From: Methanobacteriota archaeon
GTDB lineage: Archaea > Thermoplasmatota > Poseidoniia > Poseidoniales > Poseidoniaceae
Direction: 5' to 3'
NCBI GenBank assembly: GCA_018701175.1
Contig: JABIWF010000144.1
Span: forward strand, 1 to 41,998
Length of the DNA: 41,998 nucleotides
Of the stretch, positions 9,869 to 20,271 are shown piece by piece. Position 1 is the stretch's first letter. The number at the start of each line of letters is the position of its first letter. The position numbers and the translations under genes were made by a program. The notes beneath the pieces were generated by a model. That model ran no database searches. It worked only from the letters and a program-made list of their open reading frames with translations, and was not told the DNA's origin.

Positions 9869-10906
9869 ATGTCACAAACAATGCGTATTCCACATATTGA
9901 TTCACTTCGTGGACTCGCAGTACTTCTCATGGTGATGGTGCACGCAGCAGCCACTTGGAATCCATTTAATCAAGTTCAACTGACACCATTGGCGTACGTC
10001 GTCTCAGGATTAGGCGGTCTAGCAGCTCCTCTGTTCGTCACTCTGTTTGGATGGGGTATTGCGAGAGGGCGGATGACCGGTAAACAACGCTTTTTTCAAA
10101 CCATTTTTCTTCTGATTGCACAAGTTGGAGTCAACACAACCTCGCCGCATTTGTTCCATCCATTTACACCAGGTATTCTATCGCTGATGGCCATCTTAAC
10201 TCTCGTACTTCCGCCGTTTATCGAGCGAGTGAACTTGTTAGATATACGATCTTTATCGTTGTTGGTAGGAATCACATTCACATTACAGGTGACAATTCCA
10301 GACCTTCAAGGTACAGGAGTTTGGTCGGATCACATTTCAGACGAATCGTTGTCAACCGTCCTCTCGAATCTCTTTTTCACAGGCACTTATCCAGTCTTTC
10401 CATGGTTTCTTTTCGCTCTTTTAGGAGCAACAGTTGCTCAAAAATCATCGACAGAAGGCAAATCTTTAGATCCAACATCACGTGTATGTTATTTAGCCGC
10501 TCTCGGCGTATTGTTCTGCTTAGCCACTTTGCTTTATTCACAAATGAACGATCTACTTTGGGCTCACCCTACAGCAGATGCAACCCTCACATTCTTTCCG
10601 GCCAACCCTCCATTTCTGGTTGCGGGTCTTACTGGAGTTGTACTGTTGTGGTTGTTTGTCCAGCGTTTTGGACTTTCATTCTTGAACGGTGCAGGCAAAT
10701 TGTCTTTGACGATTTACCTCGTTCATTTTGTGCCCCTAACACTGATGCGTGACCTTGAGGCCACGCACCAGTGGGGATTACAAACGTCGACAGTGGCAGT
10801 GCTACTGTACACCGTTGCCTGGATTCCTATCGCAACCCTATGGCTGCGTTATTGTCCAGGGGTGAGTGCAGAGAAACTACTGCGGGCGATTCGAAAATCA
10901 CTCTGA
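9869..10906 (+). CDS. Multi-pass membrane protein, DUF1624/DUF418-like (acyltransferase-like)
   Basis: Start ATG 9869; RIPHIDSLRGLAVLLMVMVHAA and multiple hydrophobic helices. Confidence 0.65.
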   Translation: MSQTMRIPHIDSLRGLAVLLMVMVHAAATWNPFNQVQLTPLAYVVSGLGGLAAPLFVTLFGWGIARGRMTGKQRFFQTIFLLIAQVGVNTTSPHLFHPFTPGILSLMAILTLVLPPFIERVNLLDIRSLSLLVGITFTLQVTIPDLQGTGVWSDHISDESLSTVLSNLFFTGTYPVFPWFLFALLGATVAQKSSTEGKSLDPTSRVCYLAALGVLFCLATLLYSQMNDLLWAHPTADATLTFFPANPPFLVAGLTGVVLLWLFVQRFGLSFLNGAGKLSLTIYLVHFVPLTLMRDLEATHQWGLQTSTVAVLLYTVAWIPIATLWLRYCPGVSAEKLLRAIRKSL

Positions 10907-11782
10907 AGCAGCAAGTACTTCAGTTGCTTTCTTAGCACCCATCCATGCAACAACACCGAAACCGATCTTGTTGATGATGTCTGCAATGTTGTATGCAACA
11001 GCCATGTATTCTGCGCCGTTGTCAACATCAATCAATGCAACTTCAGGGCTGAAGAGGTAGCCGAGTGGGTAGATGATCCAGCCAACGACGATGAACCAGC
11101 GTAGTGCGTTTGCACTCCACATGAGTTCTTCAGAAATCTTGCTGTTGTCAACCCCGAGTCCGGAGGACCAAGGAGTTCCAGTTGCAACAATAATCATTGC
11201 CCAGCCCATTCCACCGAGGAGGAGTGCGAGGATTTCGTTCATCAAACCAGCTTCACCAGCATATCCGAATCCAATCATGATGAGTGCGCCTAGGAAACAG
11301 ATTCCAGTGAATCCGAGTCCGGCAAACTTTGCATCAGTGATAGCGCCCTTGCCAACGAGGGAAGGGAATTTAAGAGCCATCAATGGAACGGTAATGATCC
11401 AATCCATGTAGCGGTATTCTACGGAGACTTCACCGAAGTCAGCGTAAACGCCACGCATGTAATAGTAGTGGAACGCAGCAATACCAACAATTAGTGCAGA
11501 AATGGTCATTGTGGTTCTGTACTGAGGGGCAACGTTGCTACGCTCGCTCATGAAGAACACGAAAGCGGCGCCCATGGCGATGTATCCTACGAAGAAGAGG
11601 AAGAAGGTCAAAGTTTGCAAACCGTCATCAACGCCATCAGATAGGAAGGCTGGCAATCCGGTCTCTGCATCCATTTCTCCGACACCAGCAGCAGAAACTG
11701 TGGATGCCATGGCAAGGGCAAAAGTGGCAATCAAAAGCAGGCTCGTTGTCTTAGAGAACTTCTCTGTAATCATATTTCTCAA
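10898..11782 (-). CDS. Proteorhodopsin-type light-driven pump
   Basis: Signal-like N-terminus, FHYYYMRGV (His75 region), RYMDWIITVPLMALKF helix C, DIINKIGFG retinal Lys; seven hydrophobic helices. Confidence 0.96.
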   Translation of the reverse strand: MRNMITEKFSKTTSLLLIATFALAMASTVSAAGVGEMDAETGLPAFLSDGVDDGLQTLTFFLFFVGYIAMGAAFVFFMSERSNVAPQYRTTMTISALIVGIAAFHYYYMRGVYADFGEVSVEYRYMDWIITVPLMALKFPSLVGKGAITDAKFAGLGFTGICFLGALIMIGFGYAGEAGLMNEILALLLGGMGWAMIIVATGTPWSSGLGVDNSKISEELMWSANALRWFIVVGWIIYPLGYLFSPEVALIDVDNGAEYMAVAYNIADIINKIGFGVVAWMGAKKATEVLAASE

Positions 11783-13749: not shown

Positions 13750-14565
13750 ATGAGAAAGGCCGATGCTACCACGCTGGAGTATGTGACTTCAACCAATCAA
13801 TCACCGCGCCACGTAACGCTCATTGACCCTGCCAAACAGGACGCGAATACGGCTGCTAATCGGGCCATGGTGGCCGTTGAATGCGGCAGCAGTATGATAT
13901 TCGTAGGTGGTTCTACCGATACGCCTGACGAGGTCGTTCATTCAACCTGTAGGGCAATTCAAGAGGCTTTTGAGTTGAGAGCCTTTGCTGCAAGCCAAGA
14001 TCCAGAATCCGATGAATCCCAATGGTATATTCCAGTTGTCTTGTTCCCAGGTGGGGCTCACGCATTGTCTCCGGCGGCCGATGCGATTACTTTCATGATG
14101 CTGATGAACTCGAAAACTCGACGCTTCCTTGTCGGGGAACAAGTTCGCGGCGCTCCATATTTGGATAAGTTTGGAGTTGAAGCACTTCCAACAGGATATC
14201 TTGTATGTTCGCCAGGCGGCCGAGTCGGAGAAGTTGGAGACGCTGAATTGATTCAACCTGAGGATACTGATTTGACCCATGCTTACGCCCTCACAGCTCA
14301 AATGTTCGGATTCAAACTTCTCTATCTTGAAGCAGGAAGCGGTGCGCATACCCAAGTCAATCCCGCATTGATTGAAAGTGCACGTTCTGTTGAAGGTCTA
14401 ACGTTAGTTGTAGGTGGAGGAATACGCAGTCCTGAACAAGCAACTCTCGCAGCCAAGGCAGGAGCGGATTGGATTGTCACAGGCACACTCACTGAGGATG
14501 CAAGCGATTTGGAAGAACTGCGTCAACGGATCAGCGGAATAGTAAATGCGATTCAGCAGGCTTAG
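13750..14565 (+). CDS. Geranylgeranylglyceryl phosphate synthase family protein
   Basis: HVTLIDPAKQD, SSMIFVGGST, YLEAGSGA, LVVGGGIRSPEQA; PcrB/GGGPS TIM barrel, archaeal lipid biosynthesis. Confidence 0.92.
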   Translation: MRKADATTLEYVTSTNQSPRHVTLIDPAKQDANTAANRAMVAVECGSSMIFVGGSTDTPDEVVHSTCRAIQEAFELRAFAASQDPESDESQWYIPVVLFPGGAHALSPAADAITFMMLMNSKTRRFLVGEQVRGAPYLDKFGVEALPTGYLVCSPGGRVGEVGDAELIQPEDTDLTHAYALTAQMFGFKLLYLEAGSGAHTQVNPALIESARSVEGLTLVVGGGIRSPEQATLAAKAGADWIVTGTLTEDASDLEELRQRISGIVNAIQQA

Positions 14566-15827
14566 TCTTCATCCTCAAAGACAACAGGGTCTCCAGAGCC
14601 GCCTGGTGAAGGCGGTCGAGCGTCCTCGACATCCATACCAGGTTCGATAGCAGTCTCACTCACTTCAAGCGCAACTCTACCGCCATCGGCTAGTTTTGCC
14701 ATATCTTCGGTAGCAGGTGTTGAGAGTTTTCGTTCCATGTCGGGTGCGTTACTGTAAGCATCCCTCTTTGCTTCTCGGGCATCGTGTGTACGTACCAGCG
14801 ATAGAGAGTCAGCAAAGACTCTACCAACGACTTCACGAGTTCTTTCTCCTCTTCGTACCGAATCCAATTCGTGCACCATAGTTTCATGCTGACCCTCAAG
14901 TTCACGCATTTCAGCAGTTCTGTCTTGAAGAGCTGCTTCCATATCTGTGAGTGTAAGTGTAATTTGTTGAATCCGCTCATCCCGTTCAAAGACATCGTTG
15001 TGCAATCGACGCTCACGTCGGCGCAACGAGTCATATTCCCGGTTTCGCTCAAGCAGTCTTCGCTTGAGTTCATCGATTTGCTCAACCAAATAGTCGTGTT
15101 CTGCTGAAACCGAGCGTGGTCCTTGCATGACTCTCTCGAGTTGTTCCTCGAGTTCTCCCAAACGCCCGTCACGGGCATCAAGTAAGCCACGAAGACGGTC
15201 TGCAATGTCTCGTAATCTTTGTCGCTCTTCTTCCAGGGCTTTGTTCGCCGCTTGCTCCGCATCATTTTGGGCTAAAGCAGTGTCGAGTTGTGCTTTTAGT
15301 CGACGAACTTCTTCTGCAGTGACCGAGGTTAACCCAGCATCAGCAGCTCTTTCGAGTGCTTCGACCATTTGGGTGATTCGCCCCTCCATTTCACCAATGA
15401 CTTCGTCTTGTTGAGTTGTAAGGGTTCTCAATTGTTCAACTTCGACCGCAGATGCAGCACGTTCTTCGTGAGACAGCGAAGATTGCTGTGAAGCCAATTC
15501 TTCCCGGACATCACCCAACAATCGTTCAAGGTGAATCACTTTTGCTTCGCTTTCTTGGAGAGCAGAATCCGTCTCAGCCAGACGGGCTACTTCAGGTGCG
15601 ACCATGTCTTCACGCTCTGCTAAATCAAGCTCAAGAACTCGCAAGCGTTGTTTCACAGACACCATTTCTTCATTCCGAGCAGCAAGCTCATTCCAAGCGA
15701 TGAGAACTTCTTCAACCAGTTGCTCTACAGGATATCCTTTGAGCATTCCTTCAAGCGCTGCCCGCTCATCTCCACTTGCATCACCGATACGGTTGATTCC
15801 ACTTGTTCCGGAAGAGTCGAGCGTCAT
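14562..15827 (-). CDS. Long coiled-coil protein of unknown function, same strand and downstream of MamK-like actin
   Basis: 421 aa, continuous Glu/Arg/Leu heptad-like sequence, no TM segment, acidic C-terminus; overlaps the GGGPS 3' end by 4 nt. Confidence 0.8.
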   Translation of the reverse strand: MTLDSSGTSGINRIGDASGDERAALEGMLKGYPVEQLVEEVLIAWNELAARNEEMVSVKQRLRVLELDLAEREDMVAPEVARLAETDSALQESEAKVIHLERLLGDVREELASQQSSLSHEERAASAVEVEQLRTLTTQQDEVIGEMEGRITQMVEALERAADAGLTSVTAEEVRRLKAQLDTALAQNDAEQAANKALEEERQRLRDIADRLRGLLDARDGRLGELEEQLERVMQGPRSVSAEHDYLVEQIDELKRRLLERNREYDSLRRRERRLHNDVFERDERIQQITLTLTDMEAALQDRTAEMRELEGQHETMVHELDSVRRGERTREVVGRVFADSLSLVRTHDAREAKRDAYSNAPDMERKLSTPATEDMAKLADGGRVALEVSETAIEPGMDVEDARPPSPGGSGDPVVFEDED

Positions 15828-15917
15828 ACAAGCGACTATCGCCGCACAACCACACTTGAACTTTCGCCATCAAAAGGCGACTTAGATGGCTGGTTTTCCA
15901 CCCTTGCACAATGCCCG

Positions 15918-15933
15918 GCAATCAATTGATTGC
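15918..15933. repeat. 16-bp perfect palindrome GCAATCAATTGATTGC spanning the stop codon of the actin gene
   Basis: Sequence equals its own reverse complement; actin TGA is at 15922-15924 on the minus strand. Confidence 0.6.
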
Positions 15934-16926
15934 AGTGAACATATCGTCTGGCATTTCACCAGCGAGTTGAAGAGCGCCTGTAGCAACAGCATTGATTGGG
16001 TCGTCAACACACCAAACATTAACATCTCCGATGTCCGAAATTTCGTCTGCCATTCGGGCTGCGATACCTTCGATGAGAGAACCTCCGCCTGAAAGGATGA
16101 TGTTGTTGCGGAGAATAGGTTGGTATTCAGGGTCTGCGCCAGCAACGATTCGCTTGATTGCGTTTCCGATCTTTGGAACAATGAGTTCACATGCCTTGTT
16201 GACCAAATCGCCAATGTCGACAACTTGTTTCTTACCTTCAACAGAAAGTTCGACCATTGCTTCACGGTCATCAGCGCCGACATAGGACACTTCTTCCTTC
16301 CACTTTCGGACCATGTCCTTGGTGACTTGAGCGCCTGTGTACTTCTTTCGGATGAGGGCCATGAGCTCGTTATCGAGCCAATCACCCGCTTCTTGGATGG
16401 TGACTTGGTCTTCATCGGTTGGGAATGTGCCGTAGATACGGGCGATGTCTGTTGTTCCAGCACCGATGTCGACAACGATTGAACTCGCGATTTCGCCAAT
16501 ACCGAATGCGGTTGCGAACGGTTCTGTGACGACCATAATGGCATTTACTTGACCTCGAAGAGTAGCAACGAGGTTTGATTTGTCAGTGAATGAAACGTGG
16601 CTTGGTGAGCAGATGACGCCAAAAACTTCGTCGAATTCTTCAGGGTCTACAGTTTCCAACAGGTGGGAGACAAACGCCTTGGCAGCGGCGAGGTTTGCTT
16701 CATCGTCTTGAGCAACACCAGCAGCCATTGGGCGGTAGAGGTTACATGCGAGCTTGTTCTTCAGAGCATCGTTACCAAACAAAACATCTCTTCCGAGGAA
16801 GTTTCGTGCAACCGGGTCCTTTGGACGTCCGACGACTGTTTCGATTGTATGGCTGATTCCAGCGCTTGATGCAATTGTAGATTGGTAGGTACCCAGGTCG
16901 ATTCCAACATATAGACGGTCACTCAT
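15922..16926 (-). CDS. MamK/MreB-like actin homolog
   Basis: YVGIDLGTYQSTIASS (phosphate 1), VVDIGAGTTDIARIYGTFPTDEDQVT (phosphate 2), ILSGGGSLIEGIAARM (adenosine), VWCVDDPINAVATGAL. Start set to MSDRLYVGIDLGT (ATG 16926) rather than 16980. Confidence 0.9.
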   Translation of the reverse strand: MSDRLYVGIDLGTYQSTIASSAGISHTIETVVGRPKDPVARNFLGRDVLFGNDALKNKLACNLYRPMAAGVAQDDEANLAAAKAFVSHLLETVDPEEFDEVFGVICSPSHVSFTDKSNLVATLRGQVNAIMVVTEPFATAFGIGEIASSIVVDIGAGTTDIARIYGTFPTDEDQVTIQEAGDWLDNELMALIRKKYTGAQVTKDMVRKWKEEVSYVGADDREAMVELSVEGKKQVVDIGDLVNKACELIVPKIGNAIKRIVAGADPEYQPILRNNIILSGGGSLIEGIAARMADEISDIGDVNVWCVDDPINAVATGALQLAGEMPDDMFTAIN

Positions 16927-17039
16927 ATTCTTCACCTTCCGCATTGCGGATATGTTGCCGAGGATGCCACCACCCTTCAAGGTTCACCTTTGAATGCGTT
17001 GCCAGTTTATACGCGCTTTAACATGAAATTGTAACGCTA

Positions 17040-20000
17040 TCACTCGTTTTCACCCATCAAAGCATTACTGTGTTGATAGTCCTCAACATCAAATGCCGGT
17101 CGAACCTTTTTATCACGCTCATCCCTTCGAACATTCCATCCGAGTTGGTACATGAGGACAAACCCTCCAATCACGCCAAAGATGCCCCAAAGAAGCGCTC
17201 TGTTTTGTGAGGCTTCCCCTTCGGCTTGGACATCTTTGCCGTTCGTTCCTCCGTCAAGTAAAGGGTTGTTCCATTGACTGATGAAGATCGCATCATCTCG
17301 CAGTATTACGGTATCGAGTTTTGCTTCGGGTGAGTTGTTTCGAGATTGTACAAACAATTCAATTTGCAGGTCAAGCCCACGAATATCCCATACGGGCAGG
17401 TCTCTTGGTATTTCCCAAGAGCATGAAAAATTACCATTTTCAACATTAACTTTCGTACAACGAGCAATCGAGTATGAACCCCCATCGCTTGAATTGTTTA
17501 GCACGTGAATTGCAGCACCAGTATCGAATGAATCACCATCATTGTCAAAAACCGTCCATTCGACCACTAATTCATCGTACCAAATCCCTCCGTTGTCTGG
17601 AGACAAAGTGAAATCGACAGCCGGCAGAACATCAACAGGCCTACACCCGTTAGCGTCTACAGGCCAGAACACCGATGCGACTTCTGTCAAACAGAGGTCG
17701 AGGTTATCGAGGACCCCATCCCCATCGGAATCATCGATACATCCGTCGCCGTCCGTATCGTAATTTCCAGAGTTGATTTCGGGACAATCGTCGTTCGGAT
17801 CATTCACAGAATCGCCATCAGTGTCGTCAATACAGCCATTGAGATCACTGTCCCAACCCTGTGCGTTTTGGTTCGGGCATTCGTCAACCATATTGACGAC
17901 CCCGTCCCCATCACTATCGCTCCATGCTTGTGAATCGCGTACAACGCCTTCGATCGCTAGTGCGAAACCCATTCTGTTTCCATCAACTCCAACGGAATGA
18001 ACAGAATTTCCTGGGGCTACATATCGGGCACGAACTTCAACATCAATCCATTCTATGCCATCCAAATCATCTTCGGAGAGGGTTATCGCGACCGTGGTCT
18101 CGTTTCGGTTGGGGAATGTTGTTGTGTTGGAGAAGTCGACAATATCGGAGAGGTACAGGGTTGAATCACCATCGTTTTGGTACGAGCCTGCAACTGCATC
18201 TGTGCCGTCTGAAAGTCGTACGATAAGTTGCAGGTCTTCAACCAGGTGCGGTTCGGGTGCTGCTGGCCAGGCTAATCTCACTTCCAAACGTTCACCGTTC
18301 GGTTCAAATCGTTCAGTCCACACTTCGCCTGTTGCAAGGAACGGACCTTTAGCACCCGTGCCGTTCCATGGGGCAGATATCAAATTCTCGAGCGCCTCAT
18401 TGTTTCCTTGACGTTGTGAAAGCCATTCACTTGGCGACCCCTCATCCAAACGATACGAATCATGTATCCAAAGGTTGCTTGCAGGCGAAGCATTCCCTTG
18501 GTGAAGAGAGTTTTCAAGCGCTTCAAAATCAACGAGTTCAGAGAGATTGAGTTGCCCCCAACCATCGTATATGTTTTGAACAGCATAGCCGCCATTTCCA
18601 CCGTTCCTTTCATCTTGGGAGAGTTGAGTTGTAGATAGAGAAAGTAAAGCCCTCAACAATGAGCCAGAAGGAGTAAACCCTTCGGACAGTTGTAGATAAT
18701 TTGTAGAGTTGAGAGTTTCATCAGCCCACACTGGTCGCAGGGATTGAACCTCAACAGATGAACGATTCTCGCTGCCGGAAATCCATCCATCCTCAACCAT
18801 CTGTTGAATCAATGCAGCGGTTCCAGCAGCGGCCGGAGTGGACATACTCGTTCCCGATGAAGAACGCAGTGCATCGTTGTATGAATCAGGTATGCCATCA
18901 GCTCGTGCCGATTGAATAGCAGTGCCGGGAGCTAAAGCAAAGATGCCATTGGTTCCTGCTTCGGTTGGGCCGATAGACGACGATGGCCAAACTGCCAGCG
19001 ACTGAGACTTCATCGATGCGCCAACAGCAACTACATTTCTTCCGTTCGCCGGTTCCAACAACTGTGCGCCGTTGTTTCCAGGTGCGACAAAAGTCATCGA
19101 CCATGGCATCTCTAATGCCCAAGCATCGAAGTCAGCAGTTCGAGCAGTGTATTCCGTGGTTGCATCCCCCCAAGAATTAGAATGAATGACAGCCCCATTC
19201 ATACCCGCCTCGACGAACAACGAATCCACATCAGGTGGAACCCAACCATCAGCGGAAACAATGTCTTGGAAAACGAGTTTACTCTCATATGCCAGCGCCG
19301 AGCCATTTTTTGGTTGTGAGCCTGAGCGCATGTCGTACACATTGTAGCAAGCAAGCGTTCCTGCAACATGAGTGCCATGACGGTAATCAGAATGGCCGTT
19401 CGTATCTCCAGAATCAATGGAATGATTCACAGCCAAGATTTTCCGATGGTTTTCTCCAGGTGTGCCAACACCATCGGTTCCGATCGAACCAATCGCCGTT
19501 GCAGAGGTAGCGTTTCGGAAACACGCGTGATCGTAATCGATACCGGAGTCGGCGGCTGCAACAACTATACCATCCCCACTAAGACCCAGTTCCCAAGCAG
19601 GATTTGCGGTTGTTTTACCGTGCTGAAGCAGAGAGCCTGAAAGCTCATTTCTTGCTTCAGTAGAGAACACCGGTTCGACCCACAGTACCCCATCGACGTC
19701 TTTTATTCCTGATTGTTGGCCAAAGACATTCCAATCGACGATTTCGATATGCGGCAGAGGCATCGAATATTTCTGCGGGTTTGACTCAATACTCAATCCC
19801 CAAGCGAGAAACTTCCGTACAAGCGATGACACGGCATCAGCAGGAAGTCTTGGCTCAAACACTATTTTTGCGAGTTCAACATCATGTTCCAAACCGAACT
19901 TGTATTCTGTATGTGGCGGCTCCTGAGTATGTATCTCGGCGAGCGGAGTGAAATCTGTAGAACGCCAAACGAGAATGTGGCTTGGACTGATCATGCGGAG

Positions 20001-20171
20001 CGGAACATGTCCCGTTGAATCTAAGGAATCCCAGAGCTCCTGACTCCATACCCCGCTCGCAATTTCAAGAACGTATTCCGCTCCATCTTGTGGCTGGACA
20101 GGAATCGTTGTATTCAGGCCTTGAGCAAGAGGTAGCAACAACAGCATTGTGATGAACAAAGCAGGTCGCAT
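17040..20171 (-). CDS. Secreted, membrane-anchored subtilisin-like (S8) serine protease with TSP3-type calcium repeats
   Basis: Signal peptide MRPALFITMLLLLPLAQG; triad motifs ADSGIDYDH, HGTHVAGT, GTSMSTPAAAG; repeats DSDGDGVVNMVDECP / DTDGDSVNDPNDDCP / DTDGDGCIDDSDGDGVLDNLDLC; C-terminal TM helix LLWGIFGVIGGFVLMYQLGW then RRDERDKK. Confidence 0.92.
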   Translation of the reverse strand: MRPALFITMLLLLPLAQGLNTTIPVQPQDGAEYVLEIASGVWSQELWDSLDSTGHVPLRMISPSHILVWRSTDFTPLAEIHTQEPPHTEYKFGLEHDVELAKIVFEPRLPADAVSSLVRKFLAWGLSIESNPQKYSMPLPHIEIVDWNVFGQQSGIKDVDGVLWVEPVFSTEARNELSGSLLQHGKTTANPAWELGLSGDGIVVAAADSGIDYDHACFRNATSATAIGSIGTDGVGTPGENHRKILAVNHSIDSGDTNGHSDYRHGTHVAGTLACYNVYDMRSGSQPKNGSALAYESKLVFQDIVSADGWVPPDVDSLFVEAGMNGAVIHSNSWGDATTEYTARTADFDAWALEMPWSMTFVAPGNNGAQLLEPANGRNVVAVGASMKSQSLAVWPSSSIGPTEAGTNGIFALAPGTAIQSARADGIPDSYNDALRSSSGTSMSTPAAAGTAALIQQMVEDGWISGSENRSSVEVQSLRPVWADETLNSTNYLQLSEGFTPSGSLLRALLSLSTTQLSQDERNGGNGGYAVQNIYDGWGQLNLSELVDFEALENSLHQGNASPASNLWIHDSYRLDEGSPSEWLSQRQGNNEALENLISAPWNGTGAKGPFLATGEVWTERFEPNGERLEVRLAWPAAPEPHLVEDLQLIVRLSDGTDAVAGSYQNDGDSTLYLSDIVDFSNTTTFPNRNETTVAITLSEDDLDGIEWIDVEVRARYVAPGNSVHSVGVDGNRMGFALAIEGVVRDSQAWSDSDGDGVVNMVDECPNQNAQGWDSDLNGCIDDTDGDSVNDPNDDCPEINSGNYDTDGDGCIDDSDGDGVLDNLDLCLTEVASVFWPVDANGCRPVDVLPAVDFTLSPDNGGIWYDELVVEWTVFDNDGDSFDTGAAIHVLNNSSDGGSYSIARCTKVNVENGNFSCSWEIPRDLPVWDIRGLDLQIELFVQSRNNSPEAKLDTVILRDDAIFISQWNNPLLDGGTNGKDVQAEGEASQNRALLWGIFGVIGGFVLMYQLGWNVRRDERDKKVRPAFDVEDYQHSNALMGENE

Positions 20172-20271
20172 AATTGGGCTTGAACCGTCAAACTTTGTCA
20201 ATCTCGTGGTTGAAATCTTCACATTCTACGCGACGGCGCGTTTAAGTCGGGTTTGCGAGTCGCCCACTTTG

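Follow-up and report, generated by a model that had tools for sequence, protein, structure and literature searches.

A MamK-like actin and a linked coiled-coil protein as a candidate filament-plus-adaptor module in probable Marine Group II archaea

Marine Group II (MGII) archaea are reported to outnumber all other planktonic archaea at the ocean surface (PMC6461757). A genome probably belonging to this group (about 1.9 Mb) encodes, side by side, an actin resembling the magnetosome protein MamK and a long coiled-coil (CC) protein. We asked to which actin family the first protein belongs, whether the second is its partner and what the two might do together. The locus lies in a stretch of 41,998 nucleotides (hereafter the window), in which three genes follow one another on the minus strand: a subtilase (Pfam S8, 1060 aa with a C-terminal transmembrane segment; 17040..20222), the actin, here copy A (334 aa; 15922..16926), and the CC gene (421 aa; 14562..15827). 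A convergent GGGP synthase gene (13750-14565) lies downstream of the CC gene, and a rhodopsin gene (10898-11782) is also present in the window. The host is an archaeon, and its probable assignment to Marine Group II (Poseidoniales) is drawn from the GGGP synthase, the archaellins, the set of FtsZ genes, the rhodopsin, the genome size and the occurrence of archaellins throughout the genera of one family and in some of a second, all of which agree with the description in PMC6461757. Both the actin and the CC open reading frames described in the first-pass annotation were recovered at these positions on the minus strand, separated by 94 nt. Copy A extends from an ATG at 16926 to a stop at 15922, and a start at the in-frame TTG at 16980 would lengthen it by 18 aa. 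Both are real genes, kept across 15-18 genera.

Among the NCBIfam profiles, copy A scored highest with MamK (338 bits, E 5e-101), followed by BeeR (212 bits), MreB (88 bits), Salactin (33 bits) and ParM (22 bits). The cut-offs of MamK (NF040964, 400), BeeR (530), MreB (293) and Salactin (400) all exceed these scores, and copy A is by NCBIfam a strict member of none of the four families. BeeR carries an N-terminal extension of 30-50 aa (PMC11929497), and a long extension of this kind is absent from the copy A ORF. With Pfam, the MreB_Mbl profile (94 bits) scored above Actin (59 bits), and the scores for FtsA and Hsp70 (20.1 and 14.4 bits) fell under the gathering score. Sequence matches among solved structures gave the same order (MamK, E 3e-63; BeeR, 3e-38; MreB, 1e-13). 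The AF2 model of copy A, built from a 44-row alignment (pLDDT 94.3, pTM 0.90), matched the MamK filament subunit 5ljv best in Foldseek (TM 0.94/0.96, 1.5 Å), ahead of BeeR (TM 0.90) and MreB (about 0.8). The residues corresponding to MamK E143 and D161, namely E135 (codon 16522..16524, minus strand) and D153 (codon 16468..16470, minus strand), are invariant in the 44-row alignment, as are the G/D/T motifs; mutating either E143 or D161 abolishes the ATPase activity of MamK (PMC5059902). The actin ATPase fold, with its phosphate-1, phosphate-2 and adenosine motifs, is indicated by these invariant positions, by the AF2 model and by Foldseek alike. Sequence and model point to a member of the actin superfamily, probably of the polymerising type, which would form filaments with ATP.

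To place copy A more precisely, we scanned named genomes for relatives of the actin, which yielded 477 matches, and examined the best 80 of the 477 as loci. These included magnetotactic MamK proteins, 50-96% identical to their Magnetospirillum counterpart, as well as a second set, for the most part at 40-44%, whose hosts are Nitrospirota, Desulfobulbaceae, Acidobacteria, Gemmatimonadota, Planctomycetota, Latescibacterota, Methanoperedens and a single Thermoplasmata genome. In the tree, the MTB MamK proteins were monophyletic to the exclusion of the window actin (98/99), and copy A and a second MGII paralogue, copy B, were sisters (96/99) placed among the other MamK-like proteins; copy A grouped with MamK and MamK-like proteins, with BeeR and MreB outside (96/94 and 100/100). 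An AU test did not reject a joint clade of the MGII copies and MTB MamK (P = 0.26) and marginally rejected the grouping of copy A alone with MTB MamK (P = 0.04). Since the MTB MamK clade is separate and copy A stands among the MamK-like proteins, copy A is a MamK-like actin and not a magnetosome MamK. Judged from its sequence, it belongs to a non-magnetosome, MamK-like family broadly defined, which is sister to BeeR and excludes MreB. The earlier view that the protein resembles MamK more than crenactin was borne out by the profiles, the sequences of solved structures, the fold and the tree, the comparison with crenactin being made via the Pfam Actin profile only; crenactin, Ta0583, ParM and Salactin are absent from the tree and were judged by profile score. 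Nor does the actin group with Hsp70 or FtsA, a placement that had been named as one which would speak against a cytoskeletal reading.

The magnetochrome domain (PF18509), a single marker that is weak in deep-branching relatives, was found in 3/3 alphaproteobacterial MTB-type controls and in 0/13 archaeal genomes. A magnetosome role for the window actin was accordingly ruled down, the magnetochrome gene not having been found. No match over the cut-off was obtained in 24 genomes of the second set either, but sub-threshold matches occurred in a Riflebacteria genome (L182) and three genomes of the MTB MamK clade also had no match over the cut-off, so that magnetochrome alone is no proof that the second set is non-magnetotactic. 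A search of viral contigs for MamK returned no match.

Actin matches were found in 174 of the 293 genomes of the order. Nearly all genomes of one family (f1) carry the actin, usually as two copies, A and B, while in the other (f2) it is confined to genera g15, g17, g19 and g22 and is missing from many complete genomes. The CC gene follows the same genus pattern, the pair being present or absent together; in the remaining f2 genera, the few CC-like matches (E ~1e-7 to 1e-11) appear to reflect generic coiled coil. Elsewhere in the phylum, a MamK-like gene was seen in one non-Poseidoniales genome only, SG225.bin14 (G358; Thermoplasmata); as 0/11 other genomes of its class have one, this occurrence in 1/12 class genomes may be a transfer or contamination. 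One f2 genome of g15 (G007, 91% complete) has archaellins and neither actin nor CC gene, while most of its genus-mates have both; it is a candidate for natural loss of the pair, or for an assembly gap. Copy B, on another contig (G000:C85:16187-17179, L002; equivalents in further genomes), is 48% identical to copy A and scores higher than it on the MamK profile (about 344-376 bits, still below 400). Its neighbours include a thiolase-like gene and the gene of a conserved zinc-ribbon protein, but no coiled-coil gene. In a single-contig genome, two ORFs make up copy B (G002:C1:1175447-1176441, L109), either because the gene is broken or through a sequencing error.

The first-pass annotation had drawn the partnership of the two proteins from one adjacency. 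Among the matches listed, in 133 of the 137 genomes holding both, the CC gene follows downstream of copy A and shares its strand and contig; the gap is below 200 bp in 124 of the 133 (median 99 bp), and the nine larger gaps include some with inserted genes. The pairing thus extends well beyond the window, and the synteny, whose loss would have told against the proposal, is retained in related genomes. The subtilase was found upstream of the actin by Pfam in 5/5 tested genera and is a probable member of the gene cluster. Its tail was also considered as an anchor for the actin and rejected, the cytosolic tails not being conserved. Taken from gene content and order, the CC gene is a genuine candidate partner of copy A.

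The CC protein matched no Pfam or NCBIfam family above cut-off. It had been described as coiled coil over nearly its whole length, with an acidic tail; the kind of protein was correctly recognised but the extent was slightly overstated, as 47% is coiled coil by a COILS-type score (reconstructed matrix), compared with 42% for the prefoldin subunit of the window and 0% for the actin, and the AF2 model (single-sequence, pLDDT 70) is helical over residues 19-359 and disordered over 360-421. The model helix is broken at 31-33, 125-127, 165-170, 236-240 and 326-327. Conserved blocks that are not coiled are also present. The head, residues 24-72 (RxALxxML..Y...QLVxEVLxAW; 15612..15758, minus strand), has a mean pairwise identity of 63% over 12 homologues, and the stretches on either side reach 31% (residues 1-23) and 43% (73-120). 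A second block, residues 237-285 (SAEHDYLVEQIxELKRRLLERNREYxxLRRRERRLHxxVFERDER; 14973..15119, minus strand), is near-invariant (88%, compared with 53-55% in the flanking coil), and residues 326-346 reach 67%. The disordered acidic tail (360-421; 14565..14750, minus strand) ends in PGGSGDPVVFEDED; pLDDT is about 41-50 over 361-421, and the motif PGG[ST] is kept in 12/12 homologues. Islands of conservation in coiled coils usually correspond to binding sites, and those of the CC protein may likewise be regarded as candidate sites of this kind.

We further analysed the neighbours of MamK-like actins elsewhere. In the 80 loci (best of 477), coiled-coil ORFs made up 14 of ~160 neighbours, compared with 5 of 570 background ORFs, an approximately tenfold enrichment (P = 1.5e-6, which overstates independence because neighbouring loci are related). 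Such neighbours occur in deep-branching MTB, Methanoperedens, the Thermoplasmata genome and Latescibacterota; BLASTP detected no homology of the window CC protein to the CC partners of Latescibacterota, Methanoperedens or Thermoplasmata. The commonest neighbour in unrelated bacteria and archaea is a membrane amidase, and otherwise a CC protein. The amidase, an Amidase_3 (N-acetylmuramoyl-L-alanine amidase; one call by Pfam, the rest by BLASTP to that one or by sequence), lies directly upstream of the actin in most Nitrospirota, Desulfobulbaceae and Acidobacteria loci and in some others. The amidases of loci L154-L197, from several phyla, contain a conserved cytosolic N-terminal peptide, ILRGVYEDNL, near residues 11-30 and ahead of the transmembrane segment.

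A peptide of the form phi-phi-x-x-phi-phi-x-[DE]-N is common to many of these partners. Counted as phi-phi-x-x-phi-phi-x-[DESNAQ]-N, it was found in 33/42 upstream and 2/37 downstream neighbours (35/79 together), compared with 7/313 background ORFs; the upstream P-value (3e-21) overstates independence, since most upstream matches belong to one amidase family. The pattern was written after about twelve loci had been seen, and L182 and L195 are non-amidase loci found later. In the CC-type partners the peptide lies near the C-terminus, for example LLDQLFQANV (L190), VLLEIFESNL (L179), IFQRLIDDNV (L197), ILKKIVDDNI (L182), IYKGILEENI (L189) and LFSKILSDNR (L159). These listed partners have no detectable homology to the amidases and mostly none to one another (L190 and L199 pair up, as do L182 and L197). 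Among MamJ and other neighbours of MTB MamK, the peptide was present in 1/66, MamJ being without it. A putative copy in the zinc-ribbon neighbour of copy B was rejected as a weak match at one locus in an apparently folded region.

In the window CC protein, residues 333-344, VVGRVFADSLSL (14796..14831, minus strand), fit the pattern with S in place of N; the fit is kept in 12/12 homologues and is the sole such window of the alignment. In the AF2 model, the segment sits in a separate C-terminal helix (328-359) beyond the coil. The relaxed N/S pattern, which 3.4% of proteins contain, was shaped by the CC sequence itself, and the peptide's PSSM score (6.2) lies inside the shuffled range; we therefore treat docking as a hypothesis, in which VVGRVFADSLSL is a candidate actin-docking peptide. 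As a tentative generalisation, to which we give rather less than even odds, the large non-magnetosome MamK-like family may bind unrelated partners through a common helix (phi-phi-x-x-phi-phi-x-[DE]-[NS]), placed N-terminally in amidases and C-terminally in CC proteins. If this is true, an actin using a common peptide would direct envelope enzymes in bacteria and a CC adaptor in Marine Group II. The peptide offers a testable binding hypothesis and a handle on cargo, also for the membrane-amidase partners of bacteria.

The reading that we favour, with a probability of roughly 0.6, is that the pair forms a module of an ATP-driven filament and a CC adaptor that positions cargo or envelope proteins. 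MamJ and McaA/McaB tether cargo to MamK or tune its turnover. By analogy, we infer that copy A, as a member of the non-magnetosome MamK-like family, would polymerise with ATP and that the CC protein would interact with it physically, as a dedicated adaptor or cross-linker of the filament: its short C-terminal helix would supply the docking site, its central block would probably be the site of cargo binding or bundling, and the protein would hold cargo on the filament or adjust filament turnover. A membrane-associated cargo or envelope protein would thereby be positioned and shared at division. Copy B may co-polymerise with copy A or run a filament of its own. The combination of a MamK-related actin and a conserved CC gene, with no sign of a magnetosome, suggests filament positioning outside magnetotaxis.

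The first-pass annotation had also proposed a role in shape or division. Such a cytoskeleton would consist of an MreB/FtsA-like actin, the CC protein as an envelope scaffold and the subtilase processing the coat at sites set by the filament. The membrane-anchored subtilase directly upstream of the actin in every genus examined fits this reading, and the many bacterial MamK-like genes directly downstream of a peptidoglycan amidase hint at a link between envelope hydrolases and actins. However, MGIIa and MGIIb are both reported as cocci of ~0.7 µm with similar morphology (PMC6864105), which ruled down a rod-shape role, and 25/25 genomes carry FtsZ irrespective of the actin (up to two good genes, usually with a divergent third of 110-163 bits), which ruled down the actin as sole division machinery. 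Moreover, the actin is missing in many complete f2 genomes, the cytosolic tails of the subtilase vary, and the bacteria with MamK-like genes that were tested for MreB mostly retain a canonical one. We consider a shape or division role unlikely, and this part of the earlier interpretation, which as a whole is partly supported, finds no support here. Partnership itself could also be illusory, the two genes being mere neighbours that are, for instance, only co-expressed. In genus g9 they lie on separate contigs, with the actin beside the subtilase and the CC gene near the GGGP synthase, so that adjacency is not obligatory, and genes have been inserted between them in several genomes. Nevertheless, the linkage spans two families and outlasts insertions, the pair is shared or missing by genus, and CC proteins recur beside MamK-like actins elsewhere; we regard mere neighbourhood as decidedly unlikely.

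Two further explanations assign the filament other cargo. It might partition chromosomes, as ParM does plasmids and perhaps Salactin in haloarchaea, whose nearest subfamily is reported to be MamK and which may act in DNA partitioning under chromosome limitation (PMC10746226). This we judge improbable, given the low Salactin and ParM scores of copy A, the lack of any ParR-like or DNA-binding neighbour at the locus and the many sister-family genomes without the actin. The filament might instead place a motility or adhesion apparatus, such as the archaellum or a polar cap, and archaellins, found in all f1 genera and part of f2 (see also PMC6461757), have a superficially actin-like distribution. 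Genera g14 and g21 of f2, however, have archaellins without actin, as does G007, whereas in G017 and most g17 genomes the actin is present and archaellin was not detected. Over 293 genomes co-occurrence was unsupported and the mismatched distributions largely refute it, making this explanation very improbable.

The filament-plus-adaptor module may be compared with known systems. Copy A shares with MamK (5jyg, 5ljv; NF040964) the fold (TM 0.94), the ATPase residues, the length, ~35% identity and coiled-coil or acidic partners encoded nearby, but differs in lying outside the magnetotactic clade, in scoring 338 against a cut-off of 400, in having no magnetochrome gene and in its archaeal host. 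BeeR of Verrucomicrobiota (8r2n) is likewise MamK-related, non-magnetosome and filament-forming, as copy A presumably is, but copy A reaches 212 bits on its profile and BeeR is an outgroup in the tree. Crenactin with its arcadins is an archaeal actin with small partner proteins, and is closer to eukaryotic actin; copy A, unlike it, scores lower with Pfam Actin (59 bits) than with MreB_Mbl (94) or MamK (338). Salactin resembles copy A as a euryarchaeal actin reported nearest to MamK (PMC10746226), and non-magnetotactic relatives of MamK had thus been reported already, BeeR among them (PMC11929497). Copy A differs from Salactin in giving 33 bits on its profile. We know of no coiled-coil partner of Salactin. 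In the open-licence literature, we found no paper on MGII actins, their CC partner or MamK-like genes beside amidases. Should the module prove real, positioning would be the general role of MamK-type filaments, and magnetosome MamK would be one specialised case of it.

By description, a close parallel is found in Desulfovibrio magneticus RS-1, where MamK works with Mad28 and coiled-coil Mad proteins to organise magnetosomes (PMC12748827): an actin-like pair and CC partners are likewise present, and a positioning role, which we assume for the window, is shared, but the Mad system is magnetosome-specific and has several CC proteins rather than one. Two Latescibacterota loci (L158 and L175) repeat the window's order of subtilase, MamK-like actin and CC gene, with CC proteins that are not detectably homologous. 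A deep-branching locus of MTB type (L167) contains, arranged in tandem, an actin-like gene, a gene for a 161-aa CC protein with a hydrophobic N-terminus, and MamK.
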